NCBI GenBank assembly: GCA_903943625.1
Contig: CAJAPL010000157.1
Span: 1 to 11,185 of the forward strand
Reading direction: 5' to 3'
DNA length: 11,185 bases
DNA from: an uncultured bacterium
Lineage (GTDB): Bacteria; Patescibacteriota; Gracilibacteria; Absconditabacterales; Absconditicoccaceae
Positions 3,075 to 9,351 of this stretch are shown here, one piece after another (within the stretch, counting starts at the first letter, position 1; the number at the start of each line of letters is the position of its first letter). The position numbers and the translations under genes are program-made. The notes below the pieces were generated by a model. It saw only the letters and a list, made by a program, of their open reading frames with translations. It had not been told where the DNA came from and ran no database searches.

Positions 3075-4034
3075 ATGAGACCTAGATTCCACATTGTTAA
3101 AAGAGCACATTATCGAGTTTGAATATGATTCCTTTTATTGCTAGTTGCTCGATATCTGTTTTTTGCAAATGCACAATTCTGAGAAGAATTTACATGATGA
3201 ATAAATATAGGAATTAGAAAAAATATAGATCAGGGGGCATTGAAACAATCTCTAACAGAATACATGCAATCCGTATGATACCCAAAGCCAAAAGTCCTCA
3301 TAGAAAATATCGCTTGATGAGAAACAATCATAAAGGTAAATACAAGAATAGAGACCGATCAAAAAGTCGCTGAACTATCCAAAAGCATACAAAGCTTGCT
3401 AGTCCAGAAGTGATATATCTGATCTACATCAGACATATCTTCGCAGTCCATAATATGACCAAGTGTGTGAGATTTTATGGAAAAATCAGCTAGAAACGCA
3501 ATAATCGTCTGACTGATTTTAATGGCGGTTTATATGCTTATCTCTTTTTCTGCTATCAGAACGGTAATTTCTCCGTCCATATTGGCGGTTATTACTATTT
3601 TAACAATGATTTTTGATATATCTATACCAGCATGAGCATACTGACTTTGGATGATGATATCGCCCACTGTCCAAATAGATACTGTGTTTATTATAGCTAT
3701 TCTCACGACAATGTGATATAGTATCAATGACACAATTGTAATATTTGATAGGATAAGAGAAAATCTACAGACAAAATGATGAACAAAAGATATAGTTTAC
3801 GGTAAAATATTTGAAGATAGTCTGTGGCAGACCATGAGAAGATCGTTTGGTATAGTATGAGCCACGCTTCTAGTTGTTTTGGCTATGTTCTTCTTTGGAT
3901 CTTGAATAATAAAACATTTCGCATTTACTATATGAATATGAGTCCTAGCTGGGTCCTATTCTTCTATATTTATATCAGCTCCATTGGCGTATTTGATGAT
4001 GTGAAGATATAAAAAAGAAAAAGCTAAATTATAA
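3075..4034 (+). CDS. secF: Protein translocase subunit SecF
   Basis: SecF, with SecD, uses the proton gradient to assist SecYEG-dependent protein export on the outer side of the membrane. The 319-residue product has an N-terminal transmembrane helix (about residues 14-31, after RPRFHIVKRAHYRVG), then an external domain that opens with FGEEFTGGINI. The five-helix RND core begins near residue 155. The diagnostic fourth-helix motif GYSINDTIVIFDRIREN begins at residue 214, and its first Gly is TGA. Twenty-three of 29 glycines are TGA. No secD is present on either side: the upstream neighbour is RNase III and the downstream one a pseudouridine synthase 12 bp away. SecD must therefore be elsewhere in the genome if the complex is complete. 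Confidence 0.96.
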
Positions 4035-4046
4035 AAGATTATCGAT

Positions 4047-4787
4047 ATGCTAAATATTTTTCAAACATCAGACTTCTACTTTTTCCGAAAGCCACATTGA
4101 GTTGCTTCTACTTTCTGAAAAGAGAGGTCTTTTTTGGATTATGTCTTTATTGATAAAGAGGATTTACCAAAGAATCTAACATCTTACAAGGATCTTGACC
4201 AGGATTTGTCCAAATATATAGACGACAACATTAGTCGCTTAAATATAACAGCAATACAATCCGATCAACAAGTAATTATTGATAGCTTAATAAACATATT
4301 TTGAAAAGATAAAGAATACTGACTTTTAAATAGATTGGACAATGATACTTGAGGATTGCTCTACTTTGCAAAAACGGCAGATATCTACGAGGATTATAAG
4401 GCTAGACAAGCTCAGAATTTAATTGGAAAGTTTTATATAACCCAAGTTAGCGGTAATCCCTTCTTCAAAATAGATAATAAGGAGATAAACATCGACTACC
4501 CTATCATGCATCATAAATTTGCTGAAGATAGAATGGTTTGCATAATACAACCATGAGACGCCACCAAATGAGATTGAAAACAACACATAGTCTCCACCAA
4601 GATTTCTTTATTAAACTTTGACAAGGCAAAAAATACATCAACCTTACTTGTCTCAATATCAAAGTGAATTAGACACCAGATTAGGGTCCACTTGTCTAGT
4701 ATATGATGTCCAATAATATGAGAAAATATCTATTGAAACAATAGATCGCAAGAGTATCTACATCTATGGTCTATATGACTTAAATAA
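4047..4787 (+). CDS. RluA-family RNA pseudouridine synthase
   Basis: RluA-type synthases isomerise specific uridines of rRNA or tRNA to pseudouridine. The 246-residue product carries the family signature around LLNRLDNDTGGLLYFAKT, with the catalytic Asp98 in RLD. The C-terminal motif GIRHQIRVHLSSIGCPIIG is followed by the usual YG. The N-terminus resembles the core strand that reads roughly V.KP.GV in the family (here FYFFRKPHGVAST). The S4 RNA-binding domain found ahead of the core in RluC and RluD is missing, as in short RluA-like enzymes. The gene begins 12 bp after the secF stop, so the two are probably cotranscribed. The target position cannot be assigned from sequence alone. Confidence 0.93.
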
Positions 4788-7308: not shown

Positions 7309-7384
7309 ACAATGTATACAACAATGTCGAAGTGTTTCTAAGCCTACCAAACTTCATTGCTACATAGCACTATTTAGACATTGT
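7309..7384. repeat. ACAATGT repeats in the NUDIX-murG divergent intergenic region
   Basis: ACAATGT occurs at 7309-7315 and 7321-7327, and in inverse orientation (ACATTGT) at 7378-7384. The second and third copies extend to a perfect 9-bp inverted pair, AACAATGTC at 7320-7328 and GACATTGTT at 7377-7385. The last copy ends 11 bp before the murG ATG. This may be a regulatory site or a long-range hairpin. Nothing else is recognised in the 155-bp gap apart from the minus-strand promoter candidate. Confidence 0.4.
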
Positions 7385-7395
7385 TACATTATTAC

Positions 7396-8541
7396 ATGAA
7401 ATCAAAGCTCAATATAGTAATGGCATGATGATGAACAGGATGACATGTTTTTCCTATAAAAAGCCTAATTGAATATATCTGATCCAAGCCACAATACGTA
7501 TCCAAAATAAAAAACCTATATCGATTTTGAGAGAAAAATTCACTAGAACAAGATATGTTTAATAAGATCAAACCATCAACTTTCGTGTTTAAATTTATTA
7601 ATATAATTTCCTGAAAATATCGTAGAGAAACAATATTGAAATCTAGACTAAAAAATATCCGTGATTTTTTTGTATTTATTGCGGGTATATTTCAGGCTTT
7701 GTTTCGATTAATTTATTTGCGTATAGATGTGATATTTTGTAAATGATGATATGTTGCTTTACCAGTTGTGCTAGCTTGAGCAATACTTCGTAAAAAGATA
7801 ATAGTACATGAATCTGATACTCACCCATGAATCGTAAATAGAATCGCCGCTAAATTTGCCCGTAAGACATTCACGGGTTTTGACTGAGTTTTCCGTAAAT
7901 CAGAAACTGTTTGACAGATAATTTCAGATGAAATAATCGTCTCAGATAAAGATATCAAAAATTGATCACAGACCTTGGTTCAAGACAATTTCAAAAATAT
8001 AATCTCACATGTAGACAAATCCAAAACATTAATTTTGGTGTCAGGATGATCACAGTGATCCAAAAGATTATATCAATCCTTACATAAAATCATGCTTCAA
8101 AGCCAGAGTCTCAAATCAGATTTTGTTTTTTTCTTGGTGCTTTGAGTTTTAAATAAAGACATAAGATCATTATTTGCCGGACTAGACAATGTCCATATCT
8201 TTGACTTTGTTTCACAAAAAGAAATGTGAACGCTGTGTTATTTATCAGATATTTCCATCACTCGTGCTGGTACAACATCGCTCGCAGAACAAAAACTATA
8301 TGACATGAAACTACTCATGATACCTATACCATGGACGCATGATCAATATGATAATGCTAGATATTACGTGCAACAATATTGAGATATTTTAGTCGATCAG
8401 AAAGATGAGCAATTTCTAACCAAGCTGTGAATGGCTATCAGAAAGTTCAAGAATCACAAAAAGAAACAGACAAATAAGAACAGACTAGAAGAGATATCGC
8501 TAGCCAAAGATAAAATAATTAAAGAAGTTTTAGCGCTATAA
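7396..8541 (+). CDS. murG: UDP-GlcNAc:undecaprenyl-PP-MurNAc-pentapeptide GlcNAc transferase
   Basis: MurG adds GlcNAc to lipid I to form lipid II, the last cytoplasmic step of peptidoglycan precursor synthesis, at the inner face of the membrane. The 381-residue product has every hallmark: the G-loop GGGTGGHVFP at residues 11-20 (coded TGA TGA TGA ACA GGA TGA), KGGYVALPVVLAG, HESD followed by NR, the second glycine motif SGGSQGS at 216-222, and the donor-binding RAGTTSLAE at 290-298 with Glu298. PIPWTHDQYDNA follows. An insertion of about 45 residues follows the first loop region (FGEKNSLEQD through ISGKYRRE). Twenty of 26 glycines are TGA. The gene lies 9 bp ahead of a SemiSWEET-like gene, suggesting cotranscription. 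Confidence 0.97.
7999..8021 (+). repeat. 23-bp exact direct repeat, copy 2 (in murG)
   Basis: This copy matches 6604-6626 exactly. It encodes IISHVDKS just before the MurG motif LVSGGSQG, in the linker between the two Rossmann domains, a region that tolerates variation. Confidence 0.85.
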
Positions 8542-8550
8542 ACATTAAGC

Positions 8551-8817
8551 ATGTATAAAGAAGTATTGTATTTTCTGACTACTATTATGGGCATAGTGAT
8601 GAGTCTATGACATTTTTTTCAAGCATATAAAATATATAAAACCAAAAGCTGAAAAGACGTGAGTCTAGTAACCTTTAGTATTTTTGCCATAGGATCATTG
8701 ATACGACTTTTGTATGGTCTCAATCTAAATCAAACTCCCATAGTAATTAGTTTCGCTATAGGATTGATAGGTAGTGGCTCTGTTTTATTTTTGAGTATAA
8801 AATATAGAAAAAAATAA
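8551..8817 (+). CDS. SemiSWEET / PQ-loop family small transporter
   Basis: The 88-residue product has three predicted membrane helices: about residues 4-22 (VLYFLTTIMGIVMSLGHFF), 39-57 (VSLVTFSIFAIGSLIRLLYG) and 63-83. The pattern FFQAYKIYKTKSGKDVSLVTF is the first-helix end and loop of SemiSWEETs, in which the usual Pro-Gln pair is here Phe-Gln. SemiSWEETs work as homodimers that carry sugars by facilitated diffusion; related PQ-loop proteins carry other small solutes. The size matches the family (85-95 residues). It follows murG by 9 bp and is probably read from the same transcript. Glycines are two TGA and six GGN, four of the latter in the last helix. The substrate is unknown. Confidence 0.85.
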
Positions 8818-8847: not shown

Positions 8848-8888
8848 AGTCCCTCTTAGGAAAAGAGGGTGGTCCGATTTATCGGACC
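8848..8888 (-). repeat. Left double-hairpin terminal element of the DUF559 unit
   Basis: There are two adjacent hairpins: CCCTCTT (8851-8857) with AAGAGGG (8863-8869), and GGTCCGA (8871-8877) with TCGGACC (8882-8888, loop TTTA). Read on the minus strand the order is GGACC-hairpin, CCCTC-hairpin, ACTT, the same order as the right element at 9313-9351 on the plus strand. Over the outer 25 bases the two match at 18 positions without gaps. Two of the differences are compensatory within the stem. It may also act as a transcription stop after the SemiSWEET gene, or on the minus strand, where ACTTCTTTTT follows. Confidence 0.75.
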
Positions 8889-8896
8889 GGGAGATT

Positions 8897-8902
8897 TATA
8901 AT
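8897..8902 (+). promoter_or_regulatory. -10 element TATAAT of the DUF559 gene
   Basis: TATAAT ends 12 nt before ATG 8915, just inside the left hairpin element. No good -35 is visible. The spacing predicts a leaderless or near-leaderless mRNA, as for the HigA-like gene. Confidence 0.45.
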
Positions 8903-8914
8903 ATAACTTATTAT

Positions 8915-9307
8915 ATGTCCAACTGAGCTATTTATTACAACCCTAACCTTAAAAAATTTTCTAAAATAAATAGGAAACAATCAATAATGACAAAGCATGA
9001 ATGAATATTACGAAATGTTGCTCTAAAACACGACAATAGTTGATATAGATTTTTAAGACAAAAAATAATAGATGATTATATATTAGATTTTTATTGTTGA
9101 AAATTGAAGTTAGCAATAGAAGTTGATTGAGATAGTCATAATTATTCATTAGACTACGACCAAGGAAGAAACAACAAACTAGGTAAATTGTGAATAAAGA
9201 CCATAAGATATACAAACATGGAAATAAGTAAAAATCTTGAATGAGTCATAATAGATATTCAAGAACAGATTAAAATTAGAGAAGGAGAATTAAAAATACA
9301 TTTATAA
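8915..9307 (+). CDS. DUF559 domain-containing endonuclease-like protein
   Basis: DUF559 proteins belong to the PD-(D/E)XK nuclease superfamily and are related to very-short-patch-repair endonucleases. The 130-residue product starts MSNGAIYYNPNLKKFSK and contains GYRFLRQKIIDDYILDFYC with Asp58, then LAIEVDGDSH with Glu69, Asp71 and His75, and further YDQGRNNKLGKLGIKTIRYTN. These are the conserved motifs in the right order and spacing, and the length is typical (110-130). I chose ATG 8915 over the internal ATG 8987 because the YNP.LK..S...R segment before it is part of the family domain. Seven glycines are TGA and three GGN, so the gene is adapted to this code. It is flanked on both sides by matching hairpin elements, suggesting a mobile unit. 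The LRQ region before the core keeps the usual spacing. Confidence 0.87.
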
Positions 9308-9312
9308 ATCTT

Positions 9313-9351
9313 CCACCCTTCGGGTCCCCCTCCTTTTACAAAGGAGGACTT
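9313..9351 (+). repeat. Right double-hairpin terminal element of the DUF559 unit
   Basis: ACCC (9315-9318) pairs with GGGT (9322-9325) around TTC. CCTCCTTT (9329-9336) pairs with AAAGGAGG (9340-9347) around TAC, followed by ACTT. It starts six bases after the DUF559 stop codon and is the inverted counterpart of 8848-8888, although its inner hairpin is shorter. Confidence 0.75.

Follow-up and report, generated by a model that had tools for sequence, protein, structure and literature searches.

A DUF559 nuclease gene between inverted BoxC/PIT-type repeats: a candidate minimal mobile unit in Patescibacteria

What kind of element consists of one small nuclease gene boxed by two hairpin borders in opposite orientation? 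The question is raised by an 11,185-nt stretch of DNA (the window; contig CAJAPL010000157.1, contig 157 of assembly GCA_903943625.1) from the 1.0-Mb genome of an uncultured bacterium of the Absconditicoccaceae (Patescibacteriota, Gracilibacteria), whose genes are read through with TGA as glycine and in which such a gene, of the DUF559 family, occupies positions 8,848 to 9,351 together with its borders. The likely answer, to which we give a rough probability of 0.72, is a mobile unit of minimal design, some 500 bp long, made of two inverted BoxC/PIT-type repeats that enclose one small DUF559 nuclease gene, and presumably spread in a homing-like manner without a transposase. The architecture recurs, the borders of a unit resemble each other, units are gained and lost at orthologous sites, and the same genomes hold scattered pairs without an open reading frame (ORF) as well as single borders; most Patescibacteria genomes with the repeat also have DUF559.

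An earlier note on this DNA described the same hairpin plan in opposite orientation at both borders, and this is borne out (the second hairpin on the right is short), as are its 18 agreeing positions among the outer 25 (hand alignment) and its stem-preserving compensatory changes (two stem pairs are altered on both sides); the BoxC/PIT repeat type and the TGA=glycine code were absent from it. The stem of the first hairpin is CCCTCTT/AAGAGGG in the left border and, on the minus strand, CCTCCTTT/AAAGGAGG in the right border, whose purine tail on that strand reads GGAAGATTTATAA (Table 1). Of 2000 shuffles, 2 attained the border-versus-border score, as did 95 of the 6960 background pairs drawn from elsewhere in the window; alone, the match is only moderately unusual, and a comparative test therefore had to decide. 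The left border folds better than 200/200 shuffles on either strand, and the folding of the right border is unexceptional (59/200 and 51/200 shuffles fold equally well on the two strands). A relaxed motif scan of all 11,185 bases on both strands returned exactly two matches, which are the two borders, each scoring at least 9 and showing the hairpin with an inner second purine arm, directed toward the gene, that is typical of BoxC/PIT/TM repeats; at the strict threshold both fall below and the window has no match. Given the comparative evidence that follows, the feature is confirmed as real and beyond chance.

The identity of the borders was suggested by a sequence-led literature search, which pointed to the BoxC/PIT/TM “intrastrand triplex” repeats. 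In the accessible text of Holder et al. 2015 (PMC4666352), these are intergenic, at times occur as inverted pairs, and consist of a pyrimidine arm, a loop, a purine arm, a second loop and a second purine arm; they were noted in E. coli in the 1990s, are reported in more than 260 genomes and are associated with instability nearby, and have no known mover. The window repeats share the order of arms and differ in carrying a hairpin in loop 2 and in being tied to DUF559, whereas mobility genes were never found nearby according to that text, the main part of which has no word starting with “DUF” or “nuclease”. The same border plan was seen in many of thirty Patescibacteria loci, where a short loop often replaces the second hairpin, and the double-hairpin form of the window is present in other Patescibacteria loci too. 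Six of eight Oscillospiraceae loci inspected by eye showed, on both sides, the succession pyrimidine arm, loop, purine arm, hairpin, second purine arm, gene (of the remaining two, one had a shortened left border and one was arranged differently). Of three tests of the triplex geometry, in which a mirror copy of the purine arm is expected over a direct copy, the one on left flanks favored the mirror (36 vs 13, p 0.003); the corresponding counts were 20 vs 13 for right flanks (p 0.24) and 13 vs 11 for Gracilibacteria borders (p 0.60). In Oscillospiraceae borders (e.g., locus L003, 3369-3415), GACGGAGGG comes after the second hairpin and is reminiscent of the CGTC tag of repeats that Di Nocera et al. 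left without a transposase in the accessible text of PMC3733652; that DUF559 might move CGTC repeats is a speculative lead, and the alphaproteobacterial loci inspected had BoxC-like borders. A reading as an ordinary RNA family was rejected, Rfam having no match in the window at the gathering threshold.

The Patescibacteria loci (30 + 60 = 90, reduced to 88 by dropping two at contig ends) allowed the association of repeat and gene to be counted. On the strict motif scan, DUF559 genes carried the motif on the 5' side in 41/88, on the 3' side in 34/88 and on both sides in 23/88, compared to 6, 8 and 1 of 475 neighboring genes; on the relaxed scan, the numbers rose to 74, 49 and 44 of the 88, compared to 15 of 897 control windows. 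When only one locus per genome was retained, any motif was found by the strict scan in 32/52. The inner arms sit near the reading frame: the left one lies a median of 23 nt upstream of the DUF559 profile match, and 16 of the 23 right motifs with an inward arm lie at -13 to 11 nt relative to the stop codon. Flanks of the same locus were more similar to each other than flanks of different loci (means of 29.7 vs 18.6, reached in 0/5000 permutations), and a locus's own right flank was its best match in 21 of 89 loci.

At the level of genomes, R1, a covariance model (32 nt) of the common repeat form, matched in 76 of 379 Patescibacteria genomes, and DUF559 at E 1e-15 or better was present in 73. 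Both were found in 62 genomes, the repeat only in 14, DUF559 only in 11 and neither in 292 (odds ratio 118, Fisher p 1e-45, computed from at most 19 scored candidates per genome under strict filters and uncorrected for kinship). Hairpins without any link to DUF559 had been named in the earlier note as evidence that would speak against its proposal; at genome level this is not what was found, since 62 of the 76 repeat-bearing genomes have a strong DUF559. Nine loci were inspected by eye from the 11 genomes with DUF559 and no R1 match, the window's among them, and several showed divergent hairpins of the same plan.

Comparison of orthologous sites revealed both presence and absence of the unit. 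In a murG search of 31 genomes including the window's own, 28 gave a match, and two others share the window's genus. In G435 the unit stands between murG and the lamin-tail gene, with a DUF559 protein 76% identical, first hairpins identical and second hairpins of different sequence that retain their pairing; in G436, murG is followed directly by the lamin-tail gene, without the unit. Among the 15 genomes of an Oscillospiraceae genus, 5 have a contiguous site A (G381, G426, G430, G427, G424); the site is filled in 2 (G380, G434), occupied by a decayed copy in G379 and marked by a single remaining border in G431; the other 6 are without a call, and among these G423 looks unit-free. The gene and, by reading, the borders are both absent from the five contiguous genomes and therefore arrive or leave together there. 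At site B (ftsK/spoIIIE to ftsY), DUF559 units are present in G380, G381 and G431, a different unit in G424 and an ORF-less border pair in G430, whereas G427 and G428 are nearly empty with one small hairpin each (4 of 15 genomes without a call). Empty sites, which the earlier note had suggested seeking in sister strains, were seen here in genomes of the same genus. As a separate observation, locus L163 (~3900-4300), compared with L161 and L162, shows two types of DUF559 unit, or a hybrid, at one orthologous site of sister genomes.

Since R1 is blind to the window type, a second model, R2, was built from only four borders of that type. It gave 146 matches at E 0.1 in 7 of the 8 genomes of the window's family (none in G450); the window's genome (G000) accounted for 14, including the two borders. 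Neighboring matches with purine arms inward fell into two spacings, a short one of -7 to 13 nt (13 pairs) and a long one of 305-416 nt (7 pairs, two of which are units used to build R2); other orientations were rare (two outward and one tandem at up to 60 nt, one tandem at 251-520 nt; five overlapping opposite-strand calls at one place were set aside). DUF559 lay inside 4/4 fetched pairs at 375-416 nt and inside 0/5 of the short pairs examined. The short pairs, of ~92-112 nt, correspond to the unit minus its gene, and such inverted, gene-less, REPIN-like pairs were found in G000 (two, on contigs 78 and 12), G435 and G449. The hairpin pair is thus found with and without DUF559, ORF-less derivatives included, in the window's own genome.

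Taken together, these results lend support to the candidate palindrome-associated mobile unit of the earlier note: unit and borders recur together, orthologous sites differ in whether they carry the unit, and ORF-less derivatives exist. Its likeness to REP-RAYT elements, with a Vsr-like nuclease instead of a Y1 transposase, is likewise supported, as the repeat tracks DUF559 and not Y1, and Vsr is among the nearest folds. The gain and loss of gene and borders is consistent with self-spreading by site-specific cutting. The nuclease is predicted to cut DNA at or near the hairpins, or at targets at gene ends; the break would be repaired from a unit-bearing copy, by which the unit or its short ORF-less form would be copied in, and the REPIN-like pairs and solo repeats may have been mobilized in trans or may be deletion products.

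Several observations weigh against a self-spreading unit. DUF559 loci without flanking hairpins, which the earlier note would have counted against it, are a minority and do exist (9/88 without any motif even on the relaxed scan); 12 of the 76 repeat-bearing genomes lack DUF559 at E 0.001, and the co-occurrence has the filtered, kinship-uncorrected basis given above. Inverted similarity of the flanks exceeds direct similarity in only 50/89 loci (the reverse in 33/89), and the four Gracilibacteria borders show weak covariation, their number of double-changed pairs being reached by 79/500 shuffles. R1 has no match in G000 or in four Oscillospiraceae genomes with DUF559, and the borders are therefore of several sequence types. 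A target-site duplication was not seen at site A, the 305-nt pair (L240) is without a detectable DUF559, and site B is occupied by a Y1 transposase in G379 (Pfam E 9.6e-11) and, by reading, in G426, G434 and G425.

The main rival, which we regard as unlikely, holds that DUF559 is a cargo or homing gene that inserts into BoxC/PIT pairs spread by other means, so that a unit would be a filled target and an ORF-less pair an empty one. Short-joint ORF-less pairs in the same genomes, the pair in G430 at a site where other genomes have units, a homing endonuclease as the nearest characterized fold, and the targeting of REPs by insertion sequences, reported in the accessible text of PMC1525189, would all fit this scenario, but it accounts poorly for the five genomes in which site A is without both gene and borders, and for the rarity of the repeat in genomes without strong DUF559 (14/306). 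It is much more doubtful still that the repeats owe their movement to a REP-type Y1 transposase (RAYT) acting in trans, with DUF559 as a hitchhiker: apart from the Y1 genes at site B, there is one Y1 match in the window's genome, and the Y1 family (PF01797, our control, in 178 of 379 genomes) is weakly associated with the repeat (p 0.005), yet its odds ratio is 2.1 versus 118 for DUF559, and, given DUF559, the repeat is equally common without Y1 (25/28) as with it (37/45). A vertically inherited gene whose hairpins merely terminate transcription or control translation is barely credible, and the terminator-only reading is rejected, since, although hairpins lie at gene ends, the inner purine arm could act as a ribosome-binding site and a terminator scan flags the hairpins of both borders (7 in the window vs 3.8 expected), it leaves unexplained the empty sites, ORF-less pairs, solo borders, genome-wide copies and the numerous borders away from DUF559 in the R2 scan, and earlier experiments in E. 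coli, cited in the accessible text of PMC4666352, showed neither terminator nor promoter activity of PIT elements.

Beside these alternatives stands the observation that the ftsK-ftsY site with a Y1 gene (L171, 1610-2116, and L169, L170, L176) looks as if both element types use one place.

Within the window, DUF559 is the sole gene encoded in the unit, which has no Y1 (HUH) transposase. The ORF matches DUF559 (PF04480) at E 2.8e-22 with 79.1 bits (curated cut-off 20.6) and contains seven TGA codons, six of them within the profile match, so that code 25 is required. In a structure comparison (VIA-align), the nearest neighbor was an uncharacterised DUF559 structure, followed by a homing endonuclease and, third, Vsr; the protein shares the catalytic-domain fold of EDxHD homing endonucleases and has a Vsr-related fold. 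Residues E29, D58, E69, D71, H75 and D82 are invariant in a 56-row alignment. PADLOC gave merely weak matches to nuclease models, and no tRNA was found in the window. The PQ-loop ORF that precedes the unit has no match at the corresponding place in two same-genus relatives.

Table 1. The unit and its neighbors in the window.
Feature	Position	Strand	Basis or remark
murG	7381-8541		window gene
Small PQ-loop ORF	8551-8817		flanked by murG and the unit
Left border, first hairpin (pyrimidine arm A, loop, purine arm B)	8851-8869	+	fold; relaxed motif match 8851-8895; stem and loop identical in same-genus relative G435
Left border, second hairpin, at the position where BoxC/PIT repeats have loop 2	8870-8888	+	fold; pairing kept via double changes in G435 (four sequences only)
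Left border, purine arm C and tail GGGAGATTTATAA	8889-8901	+	shortly before start codon; sequence; 13-nt inverted repeat with 9302-9314, 92%
DUF559 nuclease ORF, 130 aa, code 25 (TGA=Gly), Vsr/EDxHD-like fold	8915-9307	+	
Right border, purine arm C and tail	9302-9317	-	overlaps stop codon of DUF559 ORF
Right border, second hairpin, short	9318-9328	-	fold; G435 counterpart folds with 11 pairs
Right border, first hairpin (arm A outermost)	9329-9347	-	terminator scan, fold, relaxed motif scan; stem and loop identical in G435
Lamin-tail-domain protein gene	9370 to window end		

The reach of such units beyond Patescibacteria was followed in plasmids and in E. coli. A tblastn search of plasmid records gave 35 with DUF559; in 12 examined by eye and unscored, repeats were found on both sides in five (S. 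meliloti, N. gonorrhoeae, Pseudanabaena and two Deinococcus, the latter two with opposite polarity), on one side in six and on neither side in one. E. coli KE47 has 13 R1 repeats, two of them at the DUF559 gene ycjD, where one overlaps the 3' end and the other lies 182 nt beyond; the gene is patchy: at least 80% of the query region around it is present in 3333 of 5426 complete E. coli genomes, and 2093 fall short of this. In three ycjD-less strains the region upstream of fabI holds other genes, and these are therefore not clean empty sites; the S. meliloti and Azospirillum plasmids, also tried, were not established as such. A phage search with a BoxC-like sequence returned two records, both unannotated. 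Two further observations concern reading frames: E. coli ycjD extends into the BoxC repeat at its 3' end (L155, 1030-1395), and at L189, L196, L197 and L200 the DUF559 domain lies inside long frames (498-742 aa), some with an in-frame BoxC-like hairpin, as if the unit had fused to a host gene.

Among known systems, Vsr differs in that the DUF559 gene is multicopy and patchy; we know of no mismatch-repair role for the gene in the window, and no methyltransferase was found among the four window proteins compared with Pfam, the only part of the genome covered by this search. REP/REPIN-RAYT elements differ in their enzyme, a Y1 transposase in place of a PD-(D/E)XK-type nuclease, and in their GTAG tag, which was not noticed in the window borders, where no dedicated scan was made. 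Unlike REP/REPIN-RAYT, the DUF559 unit has, to our knowledge, no known single-strand chemistry. Both have palindromic repeats, short non-autonomous units formed by an inverted pair, and complete units in which two repeats enclose a single gene (described in part in the accessible text of PMC3733652). The EDxHD homing endonuclease I-Bth0305I, as portrayed in the accessible part of a review, differs from the window protein, which has 130 aa, lies outside any intron or intein seen and is framed by palindromic repeats. In the literature searched, seen in part and with subscription papers and preprints mostly outside reach, no link between DUF559 and these repeats was found; the nearest functional hints are DUF559 segments reported as recombination hotspots in Legionella (PMC12308824) and a study of a DUF559 Vsr-like protein in Caulobacter (PMC12907096), both in the text accessible.

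That BoxC/PIT repeats have found their missing mobility enzymes in the DUF559 nucleases, and that these define a cross-phylum class of mobile elements in which palindromic repeats and REPIN-like short units are spread by a nuclease and not a transposase, probably with hairpin-directed cutting and repair copying, we put at even odds. Unit-like movement may explain the spread of a long-known orphan repeat class, and an enzyme family tied to BoxC/PIT makes the question of their mover testable in E. coli through ycjD. If true, it would provide a function for a large uncharacterised nuclease family and a nuclease-based counterpart to REPIN-RAYT, and such elements would be present even in very small genomes, recoded ones included.
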